From positions 1 to 24,275 of the IMG/VR virus record IMGVR_UViG_3300031368_000013: a stretch of 24,275 bases of DNA; one strand, 5' to 3'. Of the stretch, positions 5,301 to 22,148 are shown in pieces. A program made the translations under genes and the position numbers. This stretch comes from a virus. Under the pieces are notes generated by a model that was not told the DNA's origin, did no database searches, and saw only the letters and a program-made list of their open reading frames with translations. Each line of letters opens with the position of its first letter. Position 1 is the stretch's first letter.

Positions 5301-8300
5301 GCCCGAAGAACTTATTACAGGCATCGATGAAGTCCTGGTTAAATATCCTGCCGCCGGCGAAGGGCATGGGGATATAACCTTCACCGATCCCCGGTTGTCT
5401 TACAATCTCCATCTTAGTCGCTCTTTCCGCTCTGGCCTGCCAGTATGGAGCTTTCCTAGCCTCCATCAGAGTCTTTGCTTCACTGGCTAGATTGTCAAAT
5501 GCTGCCTTCCGCTCAGCCGCTGTCATAGCCTCTGGCACGGAGAATGATACTTGCCATGCCTCAGTGTCCCCCGAAAGCTCACTAATGCCCTCTATCTTCG
5601 GCTTGATGTGCGTATAAGGCGGGGATAATCCCTGCTCTTCGTATGTTTCGACCAGTTTCGCATAATCGTCAAGGGAGATTTGTGTGGTTTTGCCCTTACC
5701 TTTAGGTTGAACAGGCGTTGTGTAGCCGAACATATCCACCTGTAAGCCGGCCTCTGGCATACCAGCTTCGGCTTTGGGGATTGCAGTCTCAACATTCTTA
5801 CTGCGAGCTATTATATTTAATCCTGTGGTACTATCTGCCTTTACCACAACACTTTCATCACCTACCATTATTAGGGAATTAGTTGCTTTTTCGTATCTCC
5901 ATCTCATCCCAGAAGCTTCTTCAGTGATTGTTCCATCACGCAGGGTTGCTAATCTTGCTCTGGCTTTAGCAAGATGTTCCTCCGTCATGTAAGACTGTTT
6001 AACTCGCTCGCCAACAGGGGCAGCCTCTTTTGCCTCCACATCAGCTTGATATAAAGAACCTTCTGTAACCTCTGGGGTAACAGGTGTAACCTCTACTGGT
6101 GTTACATTCTCAGGACTACCTTCTACCTCAGCCAGTATATTGAGCATCCGCTTAATGCCTTCTGTTCTCTGGTTAGCAACATCAACTAGAACTCTAAGGT
6201 CAGCGAATCTTTGTTTTGTATTGGCAAGACCTTCTATTTGCTTTATGAGTTCCCCTTCGGTTAAGTTGAAATGCTCCGCCAGTTCATCTATGACATAGGC
6301 TGAAGGCACTCGCCCTTCTGGTGTTCGTGCCTGGACTTGCTCGACAGGCTTCACCATTAAGGCTGCCGCCTCTTTCAAAGTAAAGCTCTCAGGCCATTCA
6401 CCTTGTTTCAGGAAATAATCCAGATGGCGTTTTAGCTTGCCGATTTGGGCTGTAAAAGTGGCCACTGGGTCAGTTTTCAGGGTTTCTCCCAGTGCCTCAA
6501 CTTCTGCTGCCTCTTCACCAGTCATCTGCCCTATCTCCTGAAGCTGAGTCTCCATAGTATTGCGGAAGGCTAGCCTGTCCTCATACTCCATAGCTTCAAA
6601 AGCCTGTCGTATCTTCTGGTCGGGTGGGATTTCAGGAACTTCTTTGGCTGCCTTGATAGCTTCTTCCGTTTCCGCCTTGAGCGACTTTATAAAGGACTGC
6701 ATCTGCTTTAAGGTGTTCCGTAAAGCCTGAGTCTCCGATGACTTTTCCCCTATTAAAGCTCTCAATCTTCCCCCAAGCTCAGGAAATCGCCTCTGTATCG
6801 CTCTCAGGGTTTGCCCTGGCAGTATCTCCCCCCTCTTGGCCCTGAGAACCAGTGAGTGCAGCTTGGCGGCATCGGCAAGGTCCCCTTGTGTCCGCTCTGC
6901 CCGTTCCACGGCTTCAGGATAGCGTTCCTCCAGCCTCTCCGAGGGAGTAACCCCAAACTCCTGTAGTTGTTCCTCGACTCTCTTATTGGCCACTGCCTTA
7001 TAAGTTTCCTCGATGTAAGTCCCGATAGATGCTTCGGGGTTTGGCGCATACATAAAGCCGGTCTGTATCCCCCCAGCCATTGTCTCAAAGGTGCGTGGCT
7101 TCATATAAGACGGTTTGGCCCCGACAGCCCTGCCGCCTCTCCCAGGCTTGCCTCTGGCCTCTGTTACCTCGCCTTCTACCATTCGCCCAGTTACTACCCT
7201 GTGCATCCACGCCTCGTTGATGACATTTGGCGCCACGCCTTCTTTTTGCTGGAGTGTTGATACCGCCTTGTTTATCCTGTTGAATCGGGCTACATACTCT
7301 AGTCCGCGGCTCATGTCTGTCCAGTCATACATCTCAGGATGGGTTAATACATGCTCTACAGTGCCGGCATTAGTGCGCTCACTTTCATAACCTGAAAGCA
7401 GCCGGCCTGCCATCTTGGAAGAGTAGCCTGCTTCATTGAAGCCAAAGTATCTTACGGAGTCGCCGATTATGCTTTTAAGAGTGCCGGTTTCTATCTTGGC
7501 GGCATTTTGCCCCATCTTCTCAATAGCCCTGTAAGTAACGGCTATCCGTCCCACTATGTCCTCGGTCACCTGGCTGTCTATCTTGAGCGAGGACCGCCAG
7601 CCTAGGATTGTCTTCTGAATTTTCCCTATCCCCGGCATCTCGGCTGTCTTTTCAAGGGCTGTCCTAATCCAGTTCGGAACCATCAAGCCCTTTTTTATCT
7701 CCTCGTTGCTGGGTATCTGGAAGAGGGTGTCGGGTTCTCCCGGCATCCCCATGATATTACTGGGGTCTTTTACACCCAGGCCCATGTCTCCGCCCGCGGG
7801 GACAACGAGGTCTGGATTAGTAGATTGAATCTGATTTAATGCCGTCTGCGCCTGTCGCTGTATCTCGGGCAAGGCACTAACCTCATCCACTGCCTTACTC
7901 AAGGCCTCTTGCCCCTCTGGTGTTTCCAATACCTGCCCAATAGCCACAAGCTCGGCCTGCTCTTTAGGCACTCCGTTCTGTGTGAGTTTCTCTATTGTCT
8001 CGTTAATCTGTGCCATCTGGCTTGAGTTCATAAATCGGTAGAGATGCGCGGTATGAGTTCCCCCACCAATAATCGCCAGAGGCAGAATAGCAACTAGCGT
8101 TCTCAGGGTAACTTCAGGAATCCCCTCAAACATCCCTCTGTTCTCGTCTATCGTGGCGACTGTGGCGTTTTGAATAGCTTGCTGCACAACCTCTTCCATA
8201 GTCTCGGCTATTTCAATGTCGGTAAATGTTTTCAATCCCTTTATTGCGAGTTGCCTCCAGGTCAGATTTACGAGTTCCCTTTTGACATTCCGGCTGAAAG

Positions 8301-9732
8301 CCCGGGCAAATACCGGGGATACAGCCCTCAGAAACGGCAAATCTCCCATTATTTCCACTGAGTTAATCACCGCTCCGATAGGTGTAGCGAGCCGTAGAGC
8401 CTGGTCCTCAGTTGCCCCACTTGCCAGTAAATCTTCGTATAGGTCAGTTACCATCGCCGGGGTAGTGAGCACCCAGCCCGCAGCTAACCCGATAAAAGGA
8501 TTTCCTGTCGCAGCCCCTACAACTAGACTTGTCCCCATAAAAGCAGCCGTGAAAGCAGCCGATTCAGCAGCTACATTGGCGATATACCAGGGGTCATGCA
8601 CAATCAGCAGCGGGTCTTCCTTAATCTTCTCAACAATGCTGCCTTCCCACTCCTTCGGCGTCTGAAGCTCTGGATGAGCTATCAGCCATTGCCGCATCTC
8701 TGCCTGGTTTTTCTCATATCTTGTCTGCAAATCCTTGATGGTGGCTAGTGCCCCGGCAAGTTCGGGACCCTGTTCTGTTATAGTCCCGTATTGTGCCAGC
8801 AATTCCTGGTCGCTCATAAGCTCCCAGGGCTTAAATGGTGAAGTTGTTTTGGTAGCCCAGGGAATTGTTTCTGGCTGCTCGACAAGATGAGAGAGAACAA
8901 ATTGCGGTATCAAAGAAGTAAATCCCTGCTTAAGCTCATACCAAAGATTCATAACCCCAAGTCTCAGAGTATCAAGGACATTCTTTCCCCCGCTTTCCTC
9001 TACCTCAGGCAGCCTCCCGAATACCTCATACATTTGCTCCTGGGTTATCTCCGGGTAGAGGGCTTTCAGCAGAGACTCCGTTTCCCCAGTCCAACCGATC
9101 TCCCGCAGGTCAGTGAGGAAGCCTTCAGGATTAGTCTGAAGATACCCCAAAACCTCCCCTATATCCTGCTCAGGGAAGACCTGTCCGAAGATTTGCTCAG
9201 TTTCTAGCTGCTGTTTCTCCCTTAAATCCAGCCAGCCGCTAACATCAAGCTCTCCGCCACCGGTCTGATATTCCCCATATAAAGCCTTTCCCTCTTCGGT
9301 TAAATCTTCTATGGCTAGTGCCTGGGGTGTGGTTTCTAGGCCTCCGGTCGGCGGGCTCAGGAGTGTCTCCAGGTCAGCCTGGCTGTATTCCGCACCTTCG
9401 GGTGAGATGTAAGTTCCAGCTTCGGTAATCTCCCATTTTTCAGGTGTGATTAGGCTTATGGAATAGTCACCCTCTTTTGGGGTGAACTTGAGCATCCAGT
9501 TTTCCTGAAGAGATAAGCCCATGTCCGCAGCCTCAGTGGGAGTGAAGAATAGCTCCTGGGTAGGTAGAGTGGTCGCCAGCTTACTTGCTTCAATAGCGCC
9601 CGTTAGCTTGGGATACATCTCCCGCATTTCAGCCAGAGAAGTTCCGTATTGGCTGAGCAGCCTTTCAATTTCTATCTGCTGCGATTGTGCAAATTGCTGG
9701 AGTAAATTCTTAGCACTCAGGTCAATGGCCAT
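2311..9732 (-). CDS. Giant (2473 aa) polyvalent-type virion-associated protein
   Basis: One uninterrupted frame of 7.4 kb, about 30% of the window, placed between portal and scaffold. The start ATG follows AAAGG and overlaps the preceding stop. Visible layout: N-terminal helical region (1-370); an Ala/Gly-rich hydrophobic stretch (about 385-450) and a second one (about 540-565); a helical middle with GAKPSYMKPRTFETMAGGI near 870; coiled segments (about 950-1200); and a Pro/Thr/Val linker near 1210. A region I recognise from large polyvalent-protein-associated phage proteins includes FAPNYTRA near 1671, a hydrophobic segment near 1700-1720 and KVGNYNFGPGGFWYGL near 1758. The C-terminal third (about 1900-2473) is acidic, Trp/Tyr-rich and repetitive. 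No lysozyme, peptidase, nuclease or helicase motif was seen. Position, size and hydrophobic patches suggest an internal virion/ejection protein delivered with the DNA; that role is inference. Confidence 0.8.
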   Translation of the reverse strand: MAIDLSAKNLLQQFAQSQQIEIERLLSQYGTSLAEMREMYPKLTGAIEASKLATTLPTQELFFTPTEAADMGLSLQENWMLKFTPKEGDYSISLITPEKWEITEAGTYISPEGAEYSQADLETLLSPPTGGLETTPQALAIEDLTEEGKALYGEYQTGGGELDVSGWLDLREKQQLETEQIFGQVFPEQDIGEVLGYLQTNPEGFLTDLREIGWTGETESLLKALYPEITQEQMYEVFGRLPEVEESGGKNVLDTLRLGVMNLWYELKQGFTSLIPQFVLSHLVEQPETIPWATKTTSPFKPWELMSDQELLAQYGTITEQGPELAGALATIKDLQTRYEKNQAEMRQWLIAHPELQTPKEWEGSIVEKIKEDPLLIVHDPWYIANVAAESAAFTAAFMGTSLVVGAATGNPFIGLAAGWVLTTPAMVTDLYEDLLASGATEDQALRLATPIGAVINSVEIMGDLPFLRAVSPVFARAFSRNVKRELVNLTWRQLAIKGLKTFTDIEIAETMEEVVQQAIQNATVATIDENRGMFEGIPEVTLRTLVAILPLAIIGGGTHTAHLYRFMNSSQMAQINETIEKLTQNGVPKEQAELVAIGQVLETPEGQEALSKAVDEVSALPEIQRQAQTALNQIQSTNPDLVVPAGGDMGLGVKDPSNIMGMPGEPDTLFQIPSNEEIKKGLMVPNWIRTALEKTAEMPGIGKIQKTILGWRSSLKIDSQVTEDIVGRIAVTYRAIEKMGQNAAKIETGTLKSIIGDSVRYFGFNEAGYSSKMAGRLLSGYESERTNAGTVEHVLTHPEMYDWTDMSRGLEYVARFNRINKAVSTLQQKEGVAPNVINEAWMHRVVTGRMVEGEVTEARGKPGRGGRAVGAKPSYMKPRTFETMAGGIQTGFMYAPNPEASIGTYIEETYKAVANKRVEEQLQEFGVTPSERLEERYPEAVERAERTQGDLADAAKLHSLVLRAKRGEILPGQTLRAIQRRFPELGGRLRALIGEKSSETQALRNTLKQMQSFIKSLKAETEEAIKAAKEVPEIPPDQKIRQAFEAMEYEDRLAFRNTMETQLQEIGQMTGEEAAEVEALGETLKTDPVATFTAQIGKLKRHLDYFLKQGEWPESFTLKEAAALMVKPVEQVQARTPEGRVPSAYVIDELAEHFNLTEGELIKQIEGLANTKQRFADLRVLVDVANQRTEGIKRMLNILAEVEGSPENVTPVEVTPVTPEVTEGSLYQADVEAKEAAPVGERVKQSYMTEEHLAKARARLATLRDGTITEEASGMRWRYEKATNSLIMVGDESVVVKADSTTGLNIIARSKNVETAIPKAEAGMPEAGLQVDMFGYTTPVQPKGKGKTTQISLDDYAKLVETYEEQGLSPPYTHIKPKIEGISELSGDTEAWQVSFSVPEAMTAAERKAAFDNLASEAKTLMEARKAPYWQARAERATKMEIVRQPGIGEGYIPMPFAGGRIFNQDFIDACNKFFGHESGSSVLKFTSDAASILRITKASLDFSAMMIQGLTSFGISHGMLLSSPRTGLKLMGGWYKALADSTRAFFTPGVFYGYMARNEDAALQRASFGGSSRAIDYFDVLRGKHGLAKIAAWTLERIPLSPFERAEMAFYSAGEIVRDEFWKALSPKALKQGKGFELARSLDLMTGLADAQAAGVPLTMRQLESSIMWFAPNYTRACLSVVADIFRGGYTGAFARQSLGGLMAAGVAYYVGIQLAMSLLSGKDDDEAWRDIAGGLGIQEDPITGEVTWRPTAQFMTIKVGNYNFGPGGFWYGLVRLFGNISACINEIGERERIDLVRILKGSDRIPINRDNPFIYWWYTRASPLVGTGLELINGKDFLGYPIETPAEYLRYILSRFEPIWMEQGLNWMVPGAVRDYEIPEGTAKAAVPAFEIFGWRTFPESSWVKFYDRVKEYTPQIPRDELDEKQIEAWEKGALGWGELTKKQKQDLLERYPELAELYEAAQGDSKLRQTGEWEAYTNRIDEERAIYYERIDEYTRRLQAGEIGTREYRELCSEAGQNYGAIMEAMERDPTYASIYEYFDEKEAEGSKYEFRWDLAYAEYNSQVRFADDPAMYLSNGDYNWDERDRRIDGFVEKWGAGLYHEILDYITAEREEKGLNSVWIRKSQDTERLGREYWELPYKPISQMTEDDYNEGNIPAKYYGLWKQYQMLSDAEKEGLLALYPELSKDWRAEYRKAHPEEDAMLALWGYGGKLQSMEAYNLLRQWGKELGISLEDMGLGLPSESLIDDYFAYNDLGVSGNSAEAKLWRLENPEFTNWAMENWGWEGTEDYKGMEYYQFQIKWRDAQTEYDAIEGDIAKQKYLQEHGDFWAARLTMRAEDLEFPEDLTPAYVEWYQSDFKDYEDDWWLMEHKDFEQAMVQLYKDTDGKEGWAEARDYSKVPSREVYNLYQTYLGLPSGNPRLDFRAKHPELDDWLVLAKGYTSIKDRGNAEAEPTPWETQQDVERFKELFK

Positions 9733-11826: not shown

Positions 11827-13008
11827 TTAATATTTCCAAACCGGTATTTTCCCCAATACTCCAGCAAGTTTATGCGTTGCCACGGCATATCTCCGGGCGT
11901 CCATGCCATGTGACCAAGTGTGGGTTGTCCTGTCGGTGAGTTCTCCGGTGGTCCTATCCTTGAGATACCGGAAGTTTCTTTGCTCTTTGATGCAGTTTAC
12001 GCTGTCCTTTGTCCAGTGCTGGTAGAATTGATTGACCTTCTGTATGCCATACTCAACGCTGCCCTTGCCTTTGACTGCCTCAATGACATTGAACCCAAAC
12101 TTGCGCAGCTCCTCAGCGCTCTTAGGCTCGTTCGGGTCAGGGTAGATAGGCTCTCTGGCGACACCAGCAAGGCTCAGTTTCCTGGCTATCTGGTCATTGG
12201 TGAGTGCAGTCCTGTCGTAGAATATCTCCTGCGAGTAGAGCTTATCCCCCAGTATCACATTCTTAACCAGGACTGTAGGGTCGGCCGCAAAGCCGAAGTC
12301 CATCCCGTAGAAGAACTCGCCCAGGGGAAGGCTGGCCACCTGCTCGAAATGAGGATAGACTAGGCCTTCTATCTTTCCTATCAGCCCCAGCCCGTAGATG
12401 TTCCACCAGTTCGGGTCTTTATCCCGGTAAGACTCTATCTCCGCTACCTTTGACTCAGGGATGACATCTACAGCGTCAAGGTAAGTGGAATGGTCATAGG
12501 CATTTTCTTCTTCCTCAAGCCAGTTCTCATGTGCCCAGAACTCCCCGACCGGGTTCCAGTCCAAGACAGTGAAGAGCTCGGTTCTAATGTCTAGCGCCCT
12601 AGCCGTCTCCCAGGGTATGTTGTTGGCCTCGTTTATAAACAGGATATGCCGACGTGGACCTCTTACTTTGCTATCGTCATCAGCTCCAAAGAACTGAAAG
12701 ACACCCTGCCAGTCCGGGTGACGGTAAATGTGGTCCGTCTTGTTATAGAACGGGTTATTGTCTTTGCTCTCCCCCAGGATATTGAAGAAATCCCGGATGC
12801 AGCCTTGCTTCAAGTGAGGCAGAGATTCTGAGACGACTGAAATGTCCAGAGGGACTTCCGACTTATCGGCTATGACCTGGAGTGCCTGGAGAGCCGAATA
12901 GGTCTTGCTGCTCCATGTCCCGCCTTCGAGCTTAACCCTTCTCTTTCCCTCCACCCAGGCCTTCAGGATCGCCTTGAAGACTTTTGTCGTCCTTACATCT
13001 ACTTCCAT
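11827..13008 (-). CDS. terL: Terminase large subunit (PBSX/Terminase_3-like)
   Basis: A 393-aa DNA-packaging motor: ATPase plus headful/cos-cutting nuclease acting at the portal vertex. The ATPase half has a deviant Walker A, EGGTWSSKT (residues 28-36, Lys35), and Walker B ILFINEAN (122-129) with Asn in place of the usual Asp before Glu127. A coupling-type LDWNPVGEFW follows (149-158). The RNase-H-like nuclease half starts at GMDFGFAADP (Asp237), continues with DPNEPKSAEEL (about 291) and ends at GMDARRYA (Asp370), which supply the acidic metal ligands. It overlaps the small-subunit gene by 77 nt. No strong SD site precedes the chosen ATG, so translation may depend on coupling to the upstream gene. 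Length is slightly short for the family, but all motifs are present. Confidence 0.93.
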   Translation of the reverse strand: MEVDVRTTKVFKAILKAWVEGKRRVKLEGGTWSSKTYSALQALQVIADKSEVPLDISVVSESLPHLKQGCIRDFFNILGESKDNNPFYNKTDHIYRHPDWQGVFQFFGADDDSKVRGPRRHILFINEANNIPWETARALDIRTELFTVLDWNPVGEFWAHENWLEEEENAYDHSTYLDAVDVIPESKVAEIESYRDKDPNWWNIYGLGLIGKIEGLVYPHFEQVASLPLGEFFYGMDFGFAADPTVLVKNVILGDKLYSQEIFYDRTALTNDQIARKLSLAGVAREPIYPDPNEPKSAEELRKFGFNVIEAVKGKGSVEYGIQKVNQFYQHWTKDSVNCIKEQRNFRYLKDRTTGELTDRTTHTWSHGMDARRYAVATHKLAGVLGKIPVWKY

Positions 13009-13573
13009 TCGTTACCAGCTTCGTCCTTTCAGCTACTTGCGTAATCAACTTTTTTGTTTCGCCATCTACAACGGTTATGTTGACTATCCTGTCCCCTCTG
13101 TTGTCCTGGATAATCGAGGACTCAGAGTAAACCCCGTCCATCTTGTTCAAGAGGTCAATCGCCTTCATCGGGTCATGCAGCTTTACTGAGGTATGAACTG
13201 TCGGTTTAGCACCCTTCTCGTCATACTCAGTTCGGGAGTGTATTTCCTGGATGGCGCCACCCTGGGGTGTCTCCTGGCCGATGTTCACCCAGGAGCCATC
13301 TGGCCCTAGTTCCATAAAATCAGTTAATCGAGCCCGAGCTACTTCAGAAAGCCTCTCCTTGCGCTCTTGGACACTCATTACGGCAGCGTTTTTAACCTCA
13401 TCCCGGATTGCCTGGATGCGAGCCCAAATCTTAGGCTTCCTTAGATTTTCTGAAGCTATAACGGCTGCTGTCTTTCTCTTGTAACCAGCCTGTATAGCTG
13501 CCTCGGTGCCGTTGAGGAGTTCAAAGTATTTAACGCAGAATGTCTCTTGCTTCTGGGTAAGTTGTGTTCTCAT
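12932..13573 (-). CDS. terS: Terminase small subunit (Terminase_2-like)
   Basis: A 213-aa protein that should recognise the packaging site and load the large subunit. The N-terminus LTQKQETFCVKYFELLNGTE, followed by AAIQAGYK and the helical ENLRKPKIWARIQAI, is the typical helix-turn-helix start of Terminase_2 small subunits. The middle is helical and the C-terminal 40 residues are basic and Gly-rich (ending GLGGGKEKG), as in oligomerisation/large-subunit contact tails. The ATG at 13573 follows GAGGAAGGAT closely. It overlaps the upstream Cys/His gene by 44 nt and the large subunit by 77 nt; both overlaps are unusually long for this compact genome. Confidence 0.9.
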   Translation of the reverse strand: MRTQLTQKQETFCVKYFELLNGTEAAIQAGYKRKTAAVIASENLRKPKIWARIQAIRDEVKNAAVMSVQERKERLSEVARARLTDFMELGPDGSWVNIGQETPQGGAIQEIHSRTEYDEKGAKPTVHTSVKLHDPMKAIDLLNKMDGVYSESSIIQDNRGDRIVNITVVDGETKKLITQVAERTKLVTNGSRCKDDKSLQGDPEGLGGGKEKG

Positions 13574-13820
13574 ATCCTTCCTCTAAAGTTGTGCTGTCCT
13601 CAGTCCAGGTACAAGCTATCGTTCCATTCCATTTTCTACTCCGATGTAGATTTCGTCTTTTAGGCTCCTGTTTCATTTGATAACCCTCAATCATTTGCTT
13701 CTGGAAATACGGGCAATGAGATTCATGCTGCCCTGTTGAAGACATATGACAATACTCGCATCCTTCCTCAAACCAGATTTTCCTACCATCAGTTGTTTCT
13801 ATATAGTGTCCATAAGGCAT
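13530..13820 (-). CDS. 96-aa Cys/His-rich unknown protein
   Basis: N-terminal beta-type start (MPYGHYIETTDGRKIWFEEG), then CEYCHMSSTGQHESHCPYF (residues 20-38). Two Cys separated by two residues, with nearby His and Cys, could bind one zinc ion. The C-terminal half is basic, then polar. It is encoded directly before the terminase genes and overlaps the small subunit by 44 nt, so it may take part in packaging-site recognition or in late regulation. I do not recognise the family. The SD site is weak (AAGGA about 13 nt away), so translation may depend on coupling to the gene upstream, whose stop lies 2 nt before. Confidence 0.6.
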   Translation of the reverse strand: MPYGHYIETTDGRKIWFEEGCEYCHMSSTGQHESHCPYFQKQMIEGYQMKQEPKRRNLHRSRKWNGTIACTWTEDSTTLEEGYENTTYPEARDILR

Positions 13821-13821
13821 C

Positions 13822-14100
13822 TTACCAACCTAATCCTTTTGCTAAGAATTTGAGAACCTTACCTCTGAGTATTCCGACTATCAATAACCCGAATCCTACT
13901 AATGATATAAAGCCAAGAACACGCCCGAAGGCATAGTAGTGGTGCTCACTTTTCAGGTCTTTGAGCAGCTCCTTGGATGGCTCATAGTTGGCCCGCCAGA
14001 AGCAGAAGGTCTCACAGAATCCTTCTACAAGGGCGTGCCATTCCTGATGAGTGTCAAGGAAGTTGTGAATATCAAACCAGCTAAAAAAACCATTTCCCAT
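13822..14100 (-). CDS. 92-aa single-pass membrane protein
   Basis: Soluble aromatic-rich N-terminal part (MGNGFFSWFDIHNFLDTHQE; then EWHALVEGFCETFCFW) and one C-terminal membrane segment (FGRVLGFISLVGFGLLIVGI, about residues 58-78) followed by a basic tail. The start has GAGGT at good spacing and lies 2 nt after the stop of the 39-aa membrane gene. It is one of three tiny membrane proteins encoded in a row just after the late terminator. Candidate holin, antiholin or superinfection-exclusion protein; no family recognised. Confidence 0.65.
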   Translation of the reverse strand: MGNGFFSWFDIHNFLDTHQEWHALVEGFCETFCFWRANYEPSKELLKDLKSEHHYYAFGRVLGFISLVGFGLLIVGILRGKVLKFLAKGLGW

Positions 14101-14102
14101 GA

Positions 14103-14222
14103 TTACCTCAGCTTATCCCGCACCGATTTAATTAGTATCCCCAAGCCGATGCCCGCGACAAACCAAATAGCAGCCCAACTTATGCTTCCCCAAAAGCCAT
14201 ACACTACTTCGCTTCCGGCCAT
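14103..14222 (-). CDS. 39-aa membrane micro-protein
   Basis: A 39-codon frame missed by usual length cut-offs. The ATG at 14220-14222 is preceded by GTGAGGT at good spacing, and the TAA stop at 14103-14105 lies 2 nt before the next start. The sequence begins MAGSEVVYGFWGSISWAAIW and continues as a single hydrophobic helix (SISWAAIWFVAGIGLGILI, about 13-31). It ends in a basic tail KSVRDKLR, giving an N-out/C-in orientation by the positive-inside rule. It sits 7 nt after the three-helix membrane gene. Spacing, SD and clean membrane topology support it being real; function unknown, possibly a holin partner. Confidence 0.7.
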   Translation of the reverse strand: MAGSEVVYGFWGSISWAAIWFVAGIGLGILIKSVRDKLR

Positions 14223-14229
14223 GTTTACC

Positions 14230-14511
14230 TCACTTGGCGACCTTATTCATTATGTCCTGAGAAGCCCATCCGAAGGTGAAGGCTACAGGGAAGACGCCGC
14301 TTGGTGGCATCTGAAATGCCGGGAGCATTAGTATCGCAGTTGTCATCGCCACGAAGAGATTAAAGATAATGGTCACGGTATAGCGATGTTCCCACTTAAC
14401 TTGCTGCTCGCTCTGAGCTGCCTCGTATCTCTTTTTCAGGAAAGGAAATAGCGTTCTCGCGAAGCAGCCGAAGAAGATACCCACCAGCGCAATGATTTCA
14501 ACTTCAGTCAT
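14230..14511 (-). CDS. 93-aa membrane protein with two to three helices
   Basis: First gene after the terminator that ends the tRNA leader. Hydrophobic segments at about 5-24 (EIIALVGIFFGCFARTLFPF), 46-64 (TVTIIFNLFVAMTTAILML) and a weaker one at 70-85. A charged hinge KKRYEAAQSEQQVKWEHRY separates the first two. AAGGGGGT precedes the ATG. Two or three helices with a charged linker suit a class I/II holin, but no endolysin is nearby and no named family fits. Together with the 39-aa and 92-aa genes it forms a membrane cassette at the front of the late operon. Confidence 0.65.
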   Translation of the reverse strand: MTEVEIIALVGIFFGCFARTLFPFLKKRYEAAQSEQQVKWEHRYTVTIIFNLFVAMTTAILMLPAFQMPPSGVFPVAFTFGWASQDIMNKVAK

Positions 14512-14530
14512 GTTTACCCCCTTAAATGCG

Positions 14531-14551
14531 AAAAACCACCCGAAAAGGTGG
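14531..14551 (-). terminator. Intrinsic terminator closing the tRNA leader, before late genes
   Basis: On the minus strand CCACC (14547-14551) and GGTGG (14536-14540) pair around a TTTTCG loop, followed at once by TTTTT (14531-14535). It lies 10 nt after the 3' CCA of the tRNA-like element and 20 nt before the SD/start of the late membrane genes. All late genes depend on read-through of it unless another promoter exists. GGTGG could alternatively pair with CCACC inside the tRNA 3' end (14563-14567), which would compete with this stem. Confidence 0.8.
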
Positions 14552-14561
14552 CCTGAATGCT

Positions 14562-14636
14562 TGGTGGCGGGTCTGGGAATCGAACCGAGTCCTCCAGCGT
14601 ATGAAACTGGCGATTTAGCTTTTTATCCTACCCGCA
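14562..14636 (-). tRNA. tRNA-like gene, anticodon CAU (Met/initiator-like or Ile2)
   Basis: The 75-nt minus-strand segment folds as a cloverleaf. The acceptor is TGCGGGT/ACCCGCC with only the first pair (U1-C72) broken, plus A73 and an encoded CCA end. The D stem is GAT/ATC with A14 and A21. The anticodon stem CCAGT/GCTGG has loop TTCATAC, putting CAT at 14601-14603. The variable loop is 4 nt, and the T arm CTCGG/CCCAG has loop TTCGATT and one C-C mismatch. Odd points are A8 instead of U8, no GG in the D loop, and the T-stem mismatch. An unpaired 1-72 and an A11-U24 pair are initiator-tRNA hallmarks, but the three G-C pairs of the initiator anticodon stem are absent. It could be a functional phage tRNA, an Ile2 tRNA needing lysidine, or a decayed tRNA-like domain. 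Confidence 0.65.
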
Positions 14637-14711
14637 ATACTGACTAAATTAAGGAAAAAATTAACCGAAAAGTTAACTAAAATGACTTGAGGGCGTATGA
14701 ACGCCCACATT
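14637..14711 (-). other. Leader between promoter and tRNA: two small hairpins
   Basis: No protein gene fits here. The presumed leader begins near 14711. It contains a perfect 6-bp hairpin GGGCGT/ACGCCC with a 4-nt loop (14691-14706), then a weaker TTAAC/GTTAA hairpin (14661-14676). The weaker hairpin has the same 6-nt loop sequence as the terminator at 14531-14551. A second TTGACA at 14711-14716, with no -10 behind it, sits at the predicted start site and could be a binding site. The stretch is AT-rich compared with its surroundings. Confidence 0.45.
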
Positions 14712-14717
14712 GTCAAT

Positions 14718-14747
14718 AGCATATCACGATGCCCAGCGCCCTGTCAA
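14718..14747 (-). promoter_or_regulatory. Sigma-70-like promoter with extended -10, driving the tRNA leader / late genes
   Basis: Read on the minus strand: TTGACA (14742-14747, perfect -35), an 18-nt spacer, then TGA-TATGCT, an extended -10 (14718-14726). The predicted start is near 14711. It is the only promoter I find with a perfect -35 and a plausible -10. It overlaps the 3' end of the 89-aa gene, whose TGA stop is the extended -10 TGA. Transcription from it would run through two hairpins and the tRNA to the terminator at 14531-14551, giving an RNA of about 180 nt. Confidence 0.7.
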
Positions 14748-14993
14748 GCCCCAGAAAAGTGATATTTTTATGACCCTGAGCCAGGTCCATAGCCTCTTCA
14801 AACCCCTGGCCAGCCAGTTACCTTTTCTGGACCCGAGCCGGGGCTTACCCCCTAGCCATATCGGTTTCCAGGCCGGCACCCCGGATACTCGAAACTCCCT
14901 CGGCTTTGTGCCCTTCGGTTGCCTCATGCCCCGCATCTTTAGCCTCTCTCTTTTGCGCCTGTCCCTTTCTTGGATTTGAATTGCAACCCTCAT
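14724..14993 (-). CDS. 89-aa strongly basic unknown protein next to the late promoter
   Basis: The open frame extends to 15038, but the ATG at 14991-14993 is chosen: AAGGAGG lies about 8 nt upstream and the start overlaps the preceding stop as ATGA. The product begins MRVAIQIQERDRRKRERLKM and is very rich in Arg, Lys and Trp (for example GNWLARGLKRLWTWLRVIK). It has almost no acidic residues after the first third. Such composition fits RNA or DNA binding, as in lambda N-type arginine-rich proteins, but no family is recognised. Its stop codon lies inside the late promoter. By position it, or the 145-aa gene before it, would be the counterpart of a Q-type late regulator. A fortuitous frame is possible. 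Confidence 0.5.
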   Translation of the reverse strand: MRVAIQIQERDRRKRERLKMRGMRQPKGTKPREFRVSGVPAWKPIWLGGKPRLGSRKGNWLARGLKRLWTWLRVIKISLFWGLTGRWAS

Positions 14994-15427
14994 TGCGTTA
15001 CCCTCCTTTTCAAGCGATAGTGTCGTGCCGCTAACCACTGCTGGAAACTCATCTTTTTTGGGCTCCAGCCGGCCACATAATAAAGTGCATCCCTAGCGTC
15101 ATCGCTCAGGTAAATCATCTTGTCCCGGTTCTTACACTCCTCAGCCAGCAGCCTGCCCCGCCATCCTGTTCTTTTCAGCCGGCGGTCTATCTCCGCTATG
15201 GCGAGCACTACTTTGGTGTATGCTGCCTCTTTCACTGCTTGCCCCCGCATCCCGCCTGGGGCTGTGGCATCAGGAACCGGCCACTGCCCAGTATGGAGAA
15301 TGTCGGCATACTTCAATAGCCAGAACGACTGCTGAGGACACCATCTAATTTCCCCGTAGTGATACCATTCCTTACCCGGGCAGCCCTTCCAGCTCCGGCA
15401 CTCGTGGCAGTCCCCGAACTCGGTCAC
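14990..15427 (-). CDS. 145-aa protein with N-terminal Cys cluster; possible late regulator
   Basis: The N-terminus has Cys at 7, 10, 16 and 30 (MTEFGDCHECRSWKGCPGKE; later IRWCPQQ), a spacing that could hold zinc or an iron-sulfur cluster. The middle is helical and basic (EIDRRLKRTGWRGRLLAEEC). The C-terminal 45 residues (LSDDARDALYYVAGWSPKKM followed by SFQQWLAARHYRLKRR) look like a small helical, possibly DNA-binding, domain. It overlaps both neighbours by 4 nt. Late-gene regulators are usually found at this place, just before terminase genes, so a transcription-control role is a reasonable inference. I cannot assign a known family. Confidence 0.65.
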   Translation of the reverse strand: MTEFGDCHECRSWKGCPGKEWYHYGEIRWCPQQSFWLLKYADILHTGQWPVPDATAPGGMRGQAVKEAAYTKVVLAIAEIDRRLKRTGWRGRLLAEECKNRDKMIYLSDDARDALYYVAGWSPKKMSFQQWLAARHYRLKRRVTQ

Positions 15428-15633
15428 CGGTCCCTCTCCTGCTTCTCCACTGTATAGTTCGGCTTCTCCCGCATCTGCCGACTTATCTCTTCGGTGCTTT
15501 CCAGCTTGGGCTCAAGTTGAATTGCCCGCTTGCCCTTCTCAGGTGTATCCCATTCCTTTTCTGTGAAATACTCGTAGAGCGCAGGCCATAATGGTCGGCT
15601 TTCTTCGCTCAAACATTCCCATATCTTAGGCAT
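15424..15633 (-). CDS. 69-aa unknown acidic/basic protein
   Basis: Likely start ATG at 15631-15633 (a TTG at 15645 would add four residues, but has no ribosome site). The product begins MPKIWECLSEESRPLWPALY. It is helical, with a charged second half rich in Glu, Lys and Arg (EKGKRAIQLEPKLESTEEIS). The stop overlaps the next start by 4 nt. Only a weak AAAG site precedes the start, and an intrinsic terminator ends immediately upstream. Its translation and transcription therefore depend on read-through of that terminator. No family recognised. Confidence 0.55.
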   Translation of the reverse strand: MPKIWECLSEESRPLWPALYEYFTEKEWDTPEKGKRAIQLEPKLESTEEISRQMREKPNYTVEKQERDR

Positions 15634-15642
15634 CTTCTTTAA

Positions 15643-15688
15643 CAAAAAGGGCAGAAGCTAAGAGTTTCCTCTTAAAACTTCCGCCCTT
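15643..15688 (-). terminator. Long two-part terminator hairpin / possible attenuator
   Basis: Minus-strand stem of 6 + 4 bp with one mismatch (AAGGGC-x-GAAG, 15647-15657, with CTTC-x-GCCCTT, 15678-15688). It encloses an inner 6-bp helix (15659-15664 with 15669-15674) capped by a GAAA tetraloop, and is followed by TTTTT (15644-15648 side). It ends 10 nt before the ATG of the 69-aa gene. A weaker GCGC/GCGC hairpin lies upstream at about 15694-15710. The T-tract and GC-rich base argue for an intrinsic terminator; the inner GAAA helix adds a possible RNA-binding element. Confidence 0.75.
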
Positions 15689-15722
15689 CTAATGCGCTTA
15701 GTTGAGGCGCTTTATTCAGTTG

Positions 15723-15950
15723 TTAATCTATAAGCCCGCTCTCTTTAGCTATCTTATCAAATCTTATTGTTTCAGTGCCAAACCCGCTATTAACTTGGGC
15801 TTCAAGTGGTACACCCTCATGCACCTTGAGCTTCTCAAAAGTAATATACGGATGTTGACGTAAATACTCAAGGAAAGCTCTCTGAAGGGGTGTAACCTTC
15901 ATGGTAACGAGTGTAACCCCGTGGCCATCGTTAATCAATGGGTCTGGCAT
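15723..15950 (-). CDS. 75-aa unknown protein
   Basis: ATG at 15948-15950 with AGGAG 6 nt upstream. The product begins MPDPLINDGHGVTLVTMKVT. It has a helical middle PLQRAFLEYLRQHPYITFEK resembling the first helices of a winged helix, and ends TIRFDKIAKESGLID. A DNA-binding or regulatory role is possible but not shown by any motif. It is separated from the next gene by the long terminator hairpin, so it ends a transcription segment. No family recognised. Confidence 0.6.
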   Translation of the reverse strand: MPDPLINDGHGVTLVTMKVTPLQRAFLEYLRQHPYITFEKLKVHEGVPLEAQVNSGFGTETIRFDKIAKESGLID

Positions 15951-15961
15951 TTAGGCTCCTA

Positions 15962-16450
15962 TTAAATGTGTCTCCAGTTCTCCCCTCTGACAATTTCGCC
16001 AATACAAGTTTTACCTACTCCAAACATCCTACCCAATTTTCGTTGGCTAATCCCCTCATTTGTATATAATTCCCGAATCCTCTTAACATCGGATTCAGCC
16101 AATTTAGCACTCCCTTGCCGCTCACCTCTTGCCCGCCTTTCAGGATGGAGCTTCATTGTCTGCCCAACATTTGCCCTAGTCCTACCTTTATTGGCTCTAT
16201 CTCTATTATTGTCAGCTCGTGTGCCTAGAAAAAGGTGTGATGGATTTACACAAGATGTGTTATCACAATAGTGACATACGCACATACCCTTAGGGATTTT
16301 ACCCTTAAAGAGTTCATACATAAGACGATGTGCCTGAACCGCTACGCCATCAACAATTAGTGTCCCATAACCACCTTTATGCTTACCACCAATCCAATTC
16401 CAACAGTTATCGGTAATTTCAATTTTGCTCCATATCTCATTGATATTCAC
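15962..16450 (-). CDS. HNH endonuclease (HNH_3 type) with C-terminal HTH
   Basis: The open frame continues to 16471, but a GTG at 16448-16450 is preferred. AGGAG lies 7 nt before it, and it overlaps the VRR-NUC stop as GTGA. The N-terminal part has CWNWIGGKHKGGYG, then AHRLMYELFKG. The core CHYCDNTSCVNPSHLFLGT contains the His, Asn and zinc-ligand Cys residues of HNH_3 endonucleases. The C-terminal part (AKLAESDVKRIRELYTNEGI, then SQRKLGRMFGVGKTCIGEIV) is a helix-turn-helix of the type found in HNH homing enzymes. It nicks or cuts DNA at a recognised site. It may be a free-standing homing endonuclease beside the VRR-NUC gene, or may help packaging like HNH proteins of cos phages. Confidence 0.88.
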   Translation of the reverse strand: MNINEIWSKIEITDNCWNWIGGKHKGGYGTLIVDGVAVQAHRLMYELFKGKIPKGMCVCHYCDNTSCVNPSHLFLGTRADNNRDRANKGRTRANVGQTMKLHPERRARGERQGSAKLAESDVKRIRELYTNEGISQRKLGRMFGVGKTCIGEIVRGENWRHI

Positions 16451-16755
16451 CTTAACACTCCTGCAAACCATTCTATATCAGATGGGCGAACAACATAAAC
16501 CTCCTGATCACACTCCCGCAGGGCATCAAGCCACTCTTGCTGCTTCTCAGTAGGCTTGCCCTTCTCGCTCTTGAGCTCAGCATAGATAACCCGCTTTTGC
16601 TCGGGGTTTGCCAGCACTAAGTCCGGGAAGCCTGCCGGGGAGTGTATGCTTCGCCAGGTGAAATACATCTTCCAACCGAAGAGCTTACAGAGGGTCCTGA
16701 TTTGCTCTCTCAGGTCCGCCTCAGTGACGGGGATGCGGTCAATCGTTCGTGTCAA
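16447..16755 (-). CDS. VRR-NUC domain nuclease (102 aa)
   Basis: Restriction-fold nuclease made of little more than the VRR-NUC domain. Helical start (VTEADLREQIRTLCKLFGWK), then SPAGFPDLVLANPEQ with the catalytic Asp, RVIYAELKSEKGKPT with the E-x-K signature, and a final strand with EVYVVRP. The start is TTG at 16753-16755, preceded by GAGGAAG at normal spacing, with a 17-nt overlap with the previous gene. Phage single-domain VRR-NUC proteins are structure-selective or Holliday-junction nucleases in replication/recombination or packaging. Its place between replication genes and the late switch agrees with that. Confidence 0.88.
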   Translation of the reverse strand: MTRTIDRIPVTEADLREQIRTLCKLFGWKMYFTWRSIHSPAGFPDLVLANPEQKRVIYAELKSEKGKPTEKQQEWLDALRECDQEVYVVRPSDIEWFAGVLR

Positions 16756-17167
16756 TCTTCACTTCCTCGCCATACTTTTTAGCCAGTTTATTTAAGTTAG
16801 TCAAAAGCCCCTGCTCGCCTTCTTTAACTAGGAACTCTATGATTTCCTTTACTACATCAACCTTCATCCGTCTATAGCCATGAAGCAACTGAATGGTCGT
16901 GATAATTTGTTCCATCAAAGTCTTGCTGATAGTTCCTTTCTCATGCCCTACAATATACTCCCAGCCTTCAATTACCTTGTCTAATTTGTCCAGCACAGGT
17001 GGCTTCTTCCCCCCAGGAAAGAGCATCTTGTGGATTTCCTCAGCCGTATCGAACACCCACTGGGCGTCCTCCAGGGAGACATCGGGGAACTGCCCGAACT
17101 TTATCCTTTCCCAGTTATAAAGCCCGTAGTGTCCCCGTCCTATTATCTCAACTACTTGGTCTTTCAT
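16739..17167 (-). CDS. 142-aa unknown protein
   Basis: ATG at 17165-17167 after GGAGGG, overlapping the previous stop as ATGA. The protein is mostly helical: MKDQVVEIIGRGHYGLYNWE, an acidic helix with DAQWVFDTAEEIHKML, a Pro/Gly hinge, and a long C-terminal helical part ending YGEEVKIDTND. No enzyme motif or zinc-binding cluster. The company (replication loader upstream, VRR-NUC downstream) suggests an accessory role in DNA metabolism, but nothing in the sequence shows it. Confidence 0.7.
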   Translation of the reverse strand: MKDQVVEIIGRGHYGLYNWERIKFGQFPDVSLEDAQWVFDTAEEIHKMLFPGGKKPPVLDKLDKVIEGWEYIVGHEKGTISKTLMEQIITTIQLLHGYRRMKVDVVKEIIEFLVKEGEQGLLTNLNKLAKKYGEEVKIDTND

Positions 17168-17634
17168 GGTTGCCCTCCTGATATTTGAAAGCGGTGGTCC
17201 TGCATAACCTCATAGAGCAACTTGCCCTGGCCTACTTCCATATACGGCAAGAATATCTGGTCTATGGTCACCAACTCGGCCTCCAGGATTGCCATTTGCG
17301 CCCGCACCCAATCTTTAAGGATTCTCCAGGCAACCCTATATGCCTGCTTTTTTATCTTGGCCTTCCGTTGCTCCTGATACTCTGTATCCCATTGCCTACG
17401 GCTTGAAGATGCTAGTTGCTGGAGAAGGACCGCCTCAACCTTTTCCACATTGGCGGGGAGCCGGAACGGAGTATCTCCATAGTTTGTATTGATGATAAAC
17501 GCCAGACCTACCGGCTCGCCTTTATCGCCATAAGCAATCAAAATCTGCCTAGCGCCATGAGCCACTAGCATCCCCTGGATTTCACCGATAGATTGCATGG
17601 CTGTTACTTCCGTAGTGTAGTTAGCTATTGGCAT
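17164..17634 (-). CDS. Conserved phage protein of unknown function (156 aa)
   Basis: AAGGGGGTGA precedes the ATG at 17634. The N-terminal half is alpha/beta (begins MPIANYTTEVTAMQSIGEIQ; contains MLVAHGARQILIAYGDKGEP and GDTPFRLPANVEKVEAVL). The C-terminal half is a basic helix with RVAWRILKDWVRAQMAILEA and then DQIFLPYMEVGQG. I recognise this combination (FRLPAN..., AWRI-KDWV-AQ-AI-EA, FLPY) as a widespread family of small phage proteins with no established function, usually found among replication and recombination genes. It overlaps the downstream gene by 4 nt and the upstream one by 14 nt. Confidence 0.8.
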   Translation of the reverse strand: MPIANYTTEVTAMQSIGEIQGMLVAHGARQILIAYGDKGEPVGLAFIINTNYGDTPFRLPANVEKVEAVLLQQLASSSRRQWDTEYQEQRKAKIKKQAYRVAWRILKDWVRAQMAILEAELVTIDQIFLPYMEVGQGKLLYEVMQDHRFQISGGQP

Positions 17635-17812
17635 TGTTCACCCCCTTTAACTTGTTAATCCTTTCGCCGATCCTCAAAACCTGGTCGCCCAGCCTGCTTA
17701 TCTTATGCCCGGCGTTTCTCACTGAGCTGGCCCTGAGAGCCTTTATTTTGCCCAGGAGCTCCTGCTTCCGCGTCTGGAGTCGGCTAATCCTGTCTTTGGT
17801 AGGTTCTTTCAT
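17621..17812 (-). CDS. 63-aa basic helical protein
   Basis: ATG at 17812 after GGGAGGGAC. The short product begins MKEPTKDRISRLQTRKQELL and contains two basic amphipathic helices (IKALRASSVRNAGHKI; LGDQVLRIGERINKLKG) likely to form a coiled coil. It may be a small nucleic-acid binding or assembly factor, but no family is recognised. The stop lies 14 nt inside the following gene, suggesting translational coupling. Confidence 0.6.
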   Translation of the reverse strand: MKEPTKDRISRLQTRKQELLGKIKALRASSVRNAGHKISRLGDQVLRIGERINKLKGVNNANS

Positions 17813-17847
17813 TTCTCTGTCCCTCCCTGTTTTACAGAGGAAAGCGT

Positions 17848-17877
17848 CCTGAAAATGTTAAGTTTTATCAGGTTTTT
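17848..17877. other. Short hairpin with plus-strand T-tract in a 93-nt gap
   Basis: CCTGA (17848-17852) pairs with TCAGG (17868-17872), and TTTTT follows on the plus strand. No plus-strand gene precedes it, so a plus-strand terminator has no obvious use. On the minus strand it would be a weak leader hairpin before the 63-aa gene. The gap 17813-17905 otherwise shows no gene and no convincing promoter. Confidence 0.25.
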
Positions 17878-17905
17878 GAACATCCGCTAATAAACCTCGC
17901 CATTA

Positions 17906-18697
17906 TTACTTTCTGCCCCTTGTCAGCCTGTAATCCTTGGCTTCGTTCAACACAGCCCGGGATAAAATGCGGTCTAAGAATCTGCTTTTAAGACGAAGTG
18001 GTAAATCCTCAATGTCCCGATTGGTTGCGATTACCGTGTGCAACCCCCGGTTCCACCGGGCGGCCAGTAATTCCTCTATTTTCTCCTTTTCCCACGGGGT
18101 CCCGAGCTCCAAGCCATACTCGTCTATTATCAAGTAGGGTATTTCCTTGTGTTCCTTCAACTTGAATTCAACCTGATTAGTTTCCATGGCCATACGCAGC
18201 TCAGATAATAGCTCGGCCATCATCACCAACCGGGTTAGGCAGCCGCGCTCTATCCACCGGTTAGCGATTGCATTTAGAAGATGCGTTTTGCCGTTGCCCA
18301 CGCCACCATAGAGAAGCACCCATTTGACATCGCCCAGGCCTTCAGCTAGCTTAGTTGCCGCCTTGTATGTCTTCGCTACTCCGGACACTGTGGCATCGAA
18401 GTTTTCAAAGGTCTGCTCCCTCCCAGTCACGCCACTGGCTTCTATCATAAGGTTCTGTTTATATGCCCTGGCCTGGTCCCTCAAACACCCGGGATAGCCG
18501 CAGGGAATTATCCGGGAAAAGTCCGGTTTTCCTTCGATTATTGGATAGACAAAGCCACAGCCACCGCATTTCGGGCAATCGGGCAATGCTTTGTATGGCT
18601 GCCCTGCGAATTCGTCAGTCATCACCATAGTCTGGCCCCCGTGTGTAGCTCTCACGGGCGGGAAGTCCCCGGCTTTTAGTTTTTCCAGTTTGCCCAT
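17906..18697 (-). CDS. DnaC-like helicase loader ATPase with zinc ribbon
   Basis: 263 aa from the ATG at 18695-18697, chosen because AAAGGAG lies just upstream; the longer TTG start at 18718 would put that site inside the gene. The N-terminal zinc ribbon has Cys at 41, 44 and 47 and at 66 and 71 (CPKCGGCGF and CGYPGC). The AAA+ domain has Walker A YGGVGNGKTHLL (130-141, Lys137), Walker B YLIIDEYG (188-195, Asp192/Glu193), sensor-1 ATNRD (about 224-228) and a box VII/arginine-finger region RLKSRFLDR. This is the layout of DnaC/DnaI-type loaders that place the replicative helicase on a phage origin. It follows the Lin1244-type initiator, its usual partner, and overlaps it by 83 nt. Confidence 0.9.
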   Translation of the reverse strand: MGKLEKLKAGDFPPVRATHGGQTMVMTDEFAGQPYKALPDCPKCGGCGFVYPIIEGKPDFSRIIPCGYPGCLRDQARAYKQNLMIEASGVTGREQTFENFDATVSGVAKTYKAATKLAEGLGDVKWVLLYGGVGNGKTHLLNAIANRWIERGCLTRLVMMAELLSELRMAMETNQVEFKLKEHKEIPYLIIDEYGLELGTPWEKEKIEELLAARWNRGLHTVIATNRDIEDLPLRLKSRFLDRILSRAVLNEAKDYRLTRGRK

Positions 18698-20446: not shown

Positions 20447-21448
20447 TCATTTTATCTCTGGTAGCTCCTGCCTTAGTTTCCATCCTCTTTGTTCTTGTCT
20501 CCAAAATCCCTGCCATCTGCCGTCACTTGTAGCCGTAATCCTCAAGTTATCCTTCAAGAAGACCTTCACGCCCGCCTTATCCGCAGCCTCAACTATCTCA
20601 CGAACCCACTCGATTTTAGGCAAGGCTACATATTTGGTAGAGTTGAGTCTATGCCAGCCAAGCCCAGGGTATTTACTACAAAGCTGTGCCACATCATCAG
20701 CCGTGCCGGTGCAGGCACCGATAATGAGCCAGTTAATTATGTGCTTTTCTAAGAGGCTGTAAAGCGTAGCAGTTGGCGGTTCCTCCAGTAGAGGTTCTAG
20801 GGATAAATACTTAATCTGCGCCTCTATGTTTTTCAAATGGTATGACGCAGCTTTCAAATCTGAACGCCTCGTAGCCGTCACACCCACCCAGCAGTTATCG
20901 GGGAAGGGTGAGAATTTGATTAGGTTCTGAGGCTGCTTCGTGAGAAGGTAAAAGCGATAATCAGGATTGGCTTTAATGGCATTGAATACTTGCTCCTGCC
21001 AACTTTTGGGTATCCAGTTGCCAAAGAGTTCCCCCATATCGCAAACAAAAATACCCTTCTTCGGCGAGTCAGCTTTTCTTGGAATATGCAGAGGTACTAC
21101 CCTCTCTTCCCAAAAGCGGGGATAGAAGGGGTCTATGGGAGCATCTATTTCTGCTTTGTAGAACTGTCCACCTTTGTCTTTGTCGTCATAGAAATCTATT
21201 GACGTATTTCGCCAAGTAATATAATTCTTGTTCGCCAAATACCTCTGCTTCAATCTCGTATGCGCTAGTTTATAGGCATAGCAGGGAAAGCCCCCGCCTT
21301 TGCATAAGCCGTTGTCATTATTTAGACAGCCGGTGATAGGATTAAGTGTCCAACCTAGCTCATAATTGCTTGCCTGTGTGGGGTCTAAATTTGGCGATTT
21401 CATAATGGGATTTCTCACCCATCCAGTTGCCGAACTTGCTCTATTCAT
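20447..21448 (-). CDS. DUF5131 / phage Gp37-Gp68 family protein
   Basis: 333 aa. Family features in order: WTLNPITGCLNN with Cys41, Cys49 and Cys56 (a Cys cluster ending PCYA, of the kind that could ligate an Fe-S cluster); VCDMGELFGNWIPKSW; RFYLLTKQPQNL; NCWVGVTATRR; LSLEPLLEE; NWLIIGACTG; and VKVFLKDNL. These identify the Gp37/Gp68 family, a TIM-barrel-like, probably radical-SAM-related group frequent in phages. The reaction is not established. The first Cys spacing (C-x7-C-x6-C) differs from the classical CxxxCxxC, so a standard radical-SAM mechanism should not be assumed. The ATG follows AGGAGGGAG. It lies two genes from the ASCH protein and beside a methyltransferase. Confidence 0.88.
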   Translation of the reverse strand: MNRASSATGWVRNPIMKSPNLDPTQASNYELGWTLNPITGCLNNDNGLCKGGGFPCYAYKLAHTRLKQRYLANKNYITWRNTSIDFYDDKDKGGQFYKAEIDAPIDPFYPRFWEERVVPLHIPRKADSPKKGIFVCDMGELFGNWIPKSWQEQVFNAIKANPDYRFYLLTKQPQNLIKFSPFPDNCWVGVTATRRSDLKAASYHLKNIEAQIKYLSLEPLLEEPPTATLYSLLEKHIINWLIIGACTGTADDVAQLCSKYPGLGWHRLNSTKYVALPKIEWVREIVEAADKAGVKVFLKDNLRITATSDGRWQGFWRQEQRGWKLRQELPEIK

Positions 21449-21692: not shown

Positions 21693-22148
21693 TCATTTCC
21701 TGCTGAAAATAATATCTGGCTCAAAGAAACCGAGCTTCCCTTTGCATGGTATCGGCTTGTCATAAAGCACAGGGTTAGCCAGTAGCAAGCCATACATACC
21801 AATTTCATGCCAGACTGAGTAAAGATTATCGTTTTCTTCGCCATAGTGATATTTGCAGCCGACAATATCAACTTCGCCGATAATGGTACCAAGTTTGAAG
21901 ATTGAAAAGCCGGTAGTAAAGTTCGCACTCTTCCATATCTCTCTCCAAATTTCATCTGATACTCTCGCATGGATGGAATCCCAGCCTGTATCATCGAATG
22001 TTTTACCTGCGTGAACATAAATTCGCTTTGGGGTGGCGGGATAATTCAAAAGCGGTGGCATGTGAATATGCCAGGTGCGATTCTCTACATCTTTAATTCC
22101 CTTGCAGATTAGCCATGCCCAGGGTTGCCTAATACTTAATGCTTTCAT
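21693..22148 (-). CDS. ASCH-domain protein
   Basis: 151 aa. N-terminal KALSIRQPWAWLICKGIKDV followed by ENRTWHI, then KRIYVHAGKTFDD, GTIIGEVDIVGCKYHYG and the C-terminal MYGLLLANPVLYDKPIPCKG. This is the ASCH fold (PUA-like beta barrel) with its conserved ENR and Gly-x-Val strands. ASCH proteins bind RNA, and some hydrolyse N4-acetylcytidine; which activity applies here is not visible. AAGGAG lies 7 nt before the ATG. The frame is open a further 16 codons upstream to a TAG stop, so the ATG choice rests on the SD site. Confidence 0.88.
   Translation of the reverse strand: MKALSIRQPWAWLICKGIKDVENRTWHIHMPPLLNYPATPKRIYVHAGKTFDDTGWDSIHARVSDEIWREIWKSANFTTGFSIFKLGTIIGEVDIVGCKYHYGEENDNLYSVWHEIGMYGLLLANPVLYDKPIPCKGKLGFFEPDIIFSRK

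Follow-up and report, generated by a model that had tools for sequence, protein, structure and literature searches.

Q-type switches of late transcription have so far been known mainly from lambdoid phages, and the Stx2 phage 933W carries phage-borne tRNA genes in its Q-controlled late region. The lambda system (Q/pR'/6S/tR') consists of a regulator gene, a promoter, a leader of ∼180–190 nt, an intrinsic terminator, and the late genes. The pR' sequence reads TTGACT-N17-TAAATT-TGACTCAACGATGG, with two copies of TTGACT whose starts are 28 nt apart. The downstream copy, a -35-like element, is needed by lambda Q, and other lambdoid late promoters, including that of the Q protein of phage 21 (21Q), are without it; 21Q itself has a fold resembling sigma region 4 (PMC6606751). 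AlpA of Pseudomonas aeruginosa, an antiterminator of a cellular lysis pathway, loads at the alpB promoter and passes the intrinsic terminator tB, 54 nt beyond the start site (PMC7969949, PMC9371919).

The DNA analyzed here (the window), a virus record of 24,275 bases from IMG/VR, has its genes on the minus strand, and all the elements of the proposed switch (the gene for a 145-aa protein, p145, along with the promoter, leader, and terminator) lie on that strand. Judging from its sequence and that of its relatives (designated by L numbers), the window is best read as carrying a Q-like late-gene switch conserved in a little-explored group of phages. As in lambda, a candidate regulator gene, a promoter, a leader of similar length, an intrinsic terminator, and the late genes are found together; the host differs, being Proteobacteria for lambda and probably Chloroflexota for the window phage. 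The features of the window are as follows:

14990–15427, minus strand: p145, a 145-aa Cys-cluster protein that may be a Q-like antiterminator or, alternatively, a late activator; in most relatives, its gene immediately precedes the promoter-terminator unit
14724–14993, minus strand: 89-aa basic ORF between p145 and the promoter; an orphan of doubtful role
14718–14747, minus strand: late promoter, with -35 TTGACA (14747–14742), 18-nt spacer, and extended -10 TGA-TATGCT (TATGCT at 14723–14718)
14711–14716, minus strand: second TTGACA just 3' of the -10; a possible lambda pR'-type -35-like element, to be recognized by sigma region 4
14691–14706, minus strand: 5' hairpin GGGCGT-TCAT-ACGCCC, located where the leader RNA is predicted to start
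14677–14689, minus strand: conserved box CAAGTCATTTTAG, identical in L098, L101, and L011 and found also in L111, L116, and L117 (these last three were fetched using the box, so that only the presence or absence of a tRNA is informative in them)
14655–14676, minus strand: AT-rich, terminator-like hairpin TTAAC-TTTTCG-GTTAA-TTTTTT (T6 tail), 5' of the tRNA
14562–14636, minus strand: tRNA(CAU), initiator-type by sequence, CCA encoded, with a U1xC72 mismatch, A11:U24, GC instead of GG in the D-loop, and A8 instead of U8
14531–14551, minus strand: intrinsic terminator CCACC-TTTTCG-GGTGG-TTTTT, predicted to end a leader RNA of about 180 nt; its position is kept in relatives
14230–14511, minus strand: first late gene, a 93-aa membrane protein, possibly holin-like; its relative in L080 lies directly after the terminator of that locus
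11827–13573, minus strand: late genes for the small and large terminase subunits

A sequence-only reading of this DNA had described the promoter, with its perfect TTGACA, 18-nt spacer, and extended -10, as well as a leader with two hairpins and a terminator, and each of these is present at the positions listed. The promoter is the best promoter match within positions 12000–18000 of the window, with a predicted transcription start at ∼14711. In simulated windows of the same dinucleotide make-up, a perfect-TTGACA promoter followed by a terminator was found in 1 out of 200. The window contains a second promoter-terminator pair on the plus strand at 18324, antisense within a DnaC-like gene, which is probably due to chance. 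The window leader folded better than its shuffled versions (z = -2.7).

A search with the terminase large subunit yielded 80 viral loci, and a tblastn survey of these loci revealed that p145 recurs in them at a constant position, with the replication-side genes on one side and the late genes on the other. Single-sequence scans of the viral contigs with the 145-aa and 93-aa proteins gave no matches, and an alignment of six p145 members used as query retrieved 21 p145 loci, some of them on contigs already known. The DNA 3' of p145 in the relatives shows a TTGACA promoter with a 17–18-nt spacer, in which the -10 is usually of the extended type; the predicted RNA often begins with a hairpin, and an intrinsic terminator lies just before the late genes. 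Within -40 to +300 relative to the p145 stop, 18 of 22 loci have a perfect TTGACA promoter; among the control segments of these loci, such a promoter was present in 4 out of 412 (sense) and 7 out of 456 (antisense). Promoter and terminator occurred together upstream of terL at 15 loci (198 kb of sequence) and nowhere in 1.04 Mb of control DNA (619 kb antisense and 422 kb downstream sense); the p145 loci are related and some contigs overlap, so that these counts are not independent, and the control is drawn from the same loci. The promoter, the terminator, the gene order, and their conservation can be read directly from the DNA. The expectation that related phages would keep the order of promoter, tRNA, and terminator held for the promoter and the terminator, whereas a tRNA is found in only 4 of 25 leaders.

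L028 has an MTase gene after p145, and its promoter-terminator unit immediately precedes terS; hence, the unit goes with the late genes and not only with the 3' end of p145. The unit is placed after a different small HTH gene, not p145, in L030–L032. This HTH gene overlaps the unit (L030 4707–5105, L031, and L032) and possibly represents another regulator family. Loci that do not fully fit the pattern are L091 and L104, in which no unit adjoins p145, and L055, in which the -10 lacks its final T.

The p145 family, with 20 aligned members, is characterized by an N-terminal C-x2-C-x5-C-x13-C motif and a conserved C-terminal part. The window p145 showed no match to protein families, its AF2 model gave no fold match in PDB and BFVD, and the p145 profile returned nothing useful from PDB sequences; likewise, the relatives in L011 and L095 had no match at the protein level in the cultured-phage collection. 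There is no detectable sequence or fold relation between p145 and lambda Q. The divergent member L011 matched sigma-70 region 4 (Pfam, E = 8.6e-5) and gave a weak hit to PHROG 79 “anti-termination protein Q-like” (E = 0.0013). Its AF2 model matched region-4 domains with Z of about 6.4 to 7.2, which is moderate for a small helical domain; the match list of this model (VIA) included sigma region-4 domains and other HTH proteins and no Q protein, which does not thereby exclude Q. Among the p145 members, those of the divergent L011 branch alone show the sigma-4-like HTH clearly. The resemblance of p145 to 21Q and PHROG 79 thus consists of the size of about 140–160 aa, the HTH of the L011 branch, and the weak PHROG 79 match, whereas most p145 members differ from 21Q in their N-terminal Cys cluster; p145 may or may not be a Q homologue. 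The sequence-only reading had pointed to two small genes before the promoter; the gene for the 145-aa Cys-cluster protein is conserved, whereas a role for the 89-aa basic gene is not supported. The latter had no tblastn relative in the loci first searched besides the window itself and no family match, and its 3' end is overlapped by the late promoter.

A second TTGACA located 27–31 nt from the first was observed in 13 of 25 leaders (the window and 12 others) and was absent from the other 12; the corresponding frequency among other TTGACA sites, taken as control, was 6 of 578. The spacing is comparable to the offset of 28 for TTGACT in lambda and sets these leaders apart from the 21Q promoter, which is without such an element (PMC6606751). 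A function of the second TTGACA as a second promoter was ruled out, as no -10 was present at 16–18 nt in the leaders read. The sequence GACAAT shares bases with the second TTGACA, at a position upstream of that of the lambda pause element; no clear -10-like sigma-pause element was found at the lambda position in the leaders compared with lambda, and no Q-binding site could be defined in these leaders. The pR'-6S-tR'-like layout suggested for the window is borne out by the promoter and terminator of the relatives, the adjacent p145, and the -35-like element in about half of the leaders. The proposal that p145 works like Q is well supported by this layout. The switch of the window would be a variant of the already known Q-type design, with an accessory initiator-type tRNA in the leaders of a few members.

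Compared with lambda, a hairpin is added at the 5' end of the RNA and the pause element is not evident. We know of no lambda equivalent of this hairpin. Its stem varies in sequence among the relatives (GGGCAT/ATGCCC, GGGCATA/TATGCCC, GGCGTA/TACGCC, GGGGCG/CGTCCC, and others) with the pairing kept, including G-C to A-U swaps. A hairpin with at least the chosen score was present in the first 40 nt of 11 of 20 leaders as compared to 3.7% of random 40-nt segments. These observations suggest that the 5' hairpin is likely an RNA element; it could alternatively be a DNA palindrome read by a protein. The AT-rich hairpin at 14655–14676 is possibly a weak or decayed first terminator.

ARAGORN detected no tRNA in the window, and the Rfam tRNA model scored 38.5 bits (cut-off 29). 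Across nine aligned tRNAs, two-sided changes were seen in 13 of 20 stem pairs, a number reached by none of 500 shuffles. The CAU tRNA-like fold noticed earlier in the leader is confirmed by the Rfam score and the covariation, and on sequence criteria, the window tRNA is a real, covarying, initiator-type tRNA. It can be aligned with initiator tRNAs over its whole length, and its 1x72 mismatch is also present in L007, L008, L021, L063, L098, L099, and L116. The three G-C pairs 29–31:39–41 of the anticodon stem, present in L007, are not found in the window tRNA (A-U, G-C, and U-G); hence, it is termed initiator-type and not a proven initiator. The lack of these pairs, A8, and a D-loop without GG suggest that it may be impaired. 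In a covariance model built from nine tRNAs, which includes the E. coli initiator tRNA sequence, the likely initiator tRNAs of two genomes scored 89–90 bits and their other tRNAs at most 59, while the leader tRNAs outside the model scored 70 (L098), 78 (L099), and 74 bits (L116). In pairwise comparisons, the identity of the window tRNA was 0.61 with host initiator tRNAs and 0.60 with host elongator tRNAs, which did not discriminate between the two classes. In L007, L008, L021, and L063, related CAU tRNAs precede terL by about 1 to 1.3 kb. The leader tRNA of L098 (3661–3736) has the anticodon loop CCCATTA with C in place of U33, which is unusual for a working tRNA, and L086 includes a contig stretch with 16 tRNA genes, among them a similar CAU tRNA. 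Like the 933W-type tRNAs, the window tRNA lies near the head of a late region under Q-type control, as proposed here, but it is a single initiator-type tRNA between promoter and terminator. VapC-type enzymes cut initiator tRNA, altered anticodon arms of phage tRNAs could resist tRNA-cleaving defences, and phage tRNAs have been considered a counter-defence (PMC10264068). The leader tRNA may supply initiator tRNA or replace one cut by host defence.

It is proposed that the strong sigma70-type promoter is constitutive and would give rise to a short leader RNA stopping at the intrinsic terminator before the late genes. The p145 protein would engage RNA polymerase near the promoter and bring about read-through of the terminator, and its build-up would turn the late genes on. 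The tRNA would be made with the leader RNA as a passenger, independent of the late switch. We infer the transcript, its termination, and antitermination by p145, and this explanation as a whole is considered probable. AlpA would be an analog of p145 as proposed here, i.e., a promoter-loaded antiterminator passing an intrinsic terminator, and has no known relation to it.

The role of the tRNA is best judged by comparing leaders with and without it. The four leaders containing a tRNA are those of the window, L098, L099, and L116, and the tRNA is situated between box CAAGTCATTTTAG (a variant in the first base or two in L099) and the terminator. The box is directly followed by the terminator in L101, L103 (variant box), and L011, likewise in L111 and L117, and the leader of L087, whose p145 is nearest to that of the window, is also without tRNA. 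Since matching leaders occur without it, the tRNA appears to be accessory and is best understood either as having been inserted into a leader that otherwise matches those of the relatives or as an optional component of it. Taken alone, the promoter, tRNA, and terminator of the window look self-contained, as if they formed an autonomous tRNA gene with the late genes transcribed from another promoter. This reading is largely refuted by about 20 related leaders in which this promoter, mostly together with the terminator, occupies the corresponding position and no tRNA is present; moreover, the tRNA of L095/L007 sits outside its leader. Very little probability is assigned to the autonomous tRNA gene. 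The sequence-only reading had made the tRNA a part of the switch, with the terminator arm GGTGG pairing either with its own stem or with CCACC of the tRNA tail. In a tRNA-dependent switch of this kind, folding, processing, or charging of the tRNA would decide on terminator formation. The position of the tRNA between hairpin and terminator in four leaders and the possible pairing are in its favor. However, the alternative pairing is weaker (-6.1 kcal/mol vs. -8.6 kcal/mol for the terminator's own stem), close relatives have the same leader without the tRNA, most leaders have none, the GGTGG arm is unchanged in the tRNA-less leaders, and L099 has a leader tRNA without the CCACC tail. The necessity of the tRNA was not borne out, the match between terminator arm and tRNA tail is best read as chance, and a tRNA-dependent switch is highly improbable.

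The other alternatives concern p145 and the leader RNA. An activator of the late promoter like RinA/ArpU, with the terminator being a weak attenuator or insulator, would also fit the sigma-4-like HTH of the L011 branch and a regulator gene adjoining the late operon. The promoters, however, are already near consensus and mostly have an extended -10, a terminator is placed downstream of the promoter and before the late genes, and some leaders (L087, L094, and L095) contain two terminators; such a role of p145 is unlikely. If the leader with its 5' hairpin, box, and terminator were a trans-acting regulatory small RNA and the late genes were switched otherwise, the retention of the hairpin through changes of sequence and the conservation of box CAAGTCATTTTAG in one group could be explained. 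Leader length and content nevertheless vary widely while promoter and terminator stay, the position is upstream of the late genes, and lambda 6S RNA also leads a late operon, all of which render this possibility improbable. In comparison with the antitermination by p145 preferred here, a more far-reaching version, in which p145 forms a new family of processive antiterminators unrelated to known Q that switches the late genes of Dehalococcoidia phages, with the 5' hairpin in the loading signal and the leader tRNA in termination control in some phages, has little chance of being correct in its entirety.

A conserved Q-like layout in Dehalococcoidia-linked phages, combined with a regulator that seems unrelated and a lambda-type -35-like element at the corresponding position, would, if true, indicate that the design is far more widespread or has arisen more than once. 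The filled and empty leaders constitute a natural experiment on why phages carry tRNAs. A Dehalococcoidia MAG carries a terminase relative, and p145-like genes were found in 5 of 393 genomes of the class of that MAG; the window host is taken to be Dehalococcoidia-type on the sole basis of provirus relatives in that class. A literature search on antitermination in Dehalococcoidia prophages returned nothing relevant. A provirus in a 1.52-Mb single-contig genome (L128, 8607–16351) carries a p145 homologue, followed by promoter and terminator and then by terminase-like genes, as well as an HNH gene, which makes this genome a possible test place for the switch. In L127 (genome G296 contig 83), the p145-like frame has two in-frame stops, and the promoter, second TTGACA, and hairpin look intact.

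Among the remaining genes, the L080 relative of the 93-aa protein showed a weak PHROG holin match (E = 0.016). A single 2473-aa ORF without Pfam or PHROG match follows the portal gene (2311–9732, minus strand). The early genes on the minus strand include those for a DUF5131 protein (20447–21448), a weakly matching ASCH-domain protein (21693–22148), and a VRR-NUC nuclease (16447–16755).
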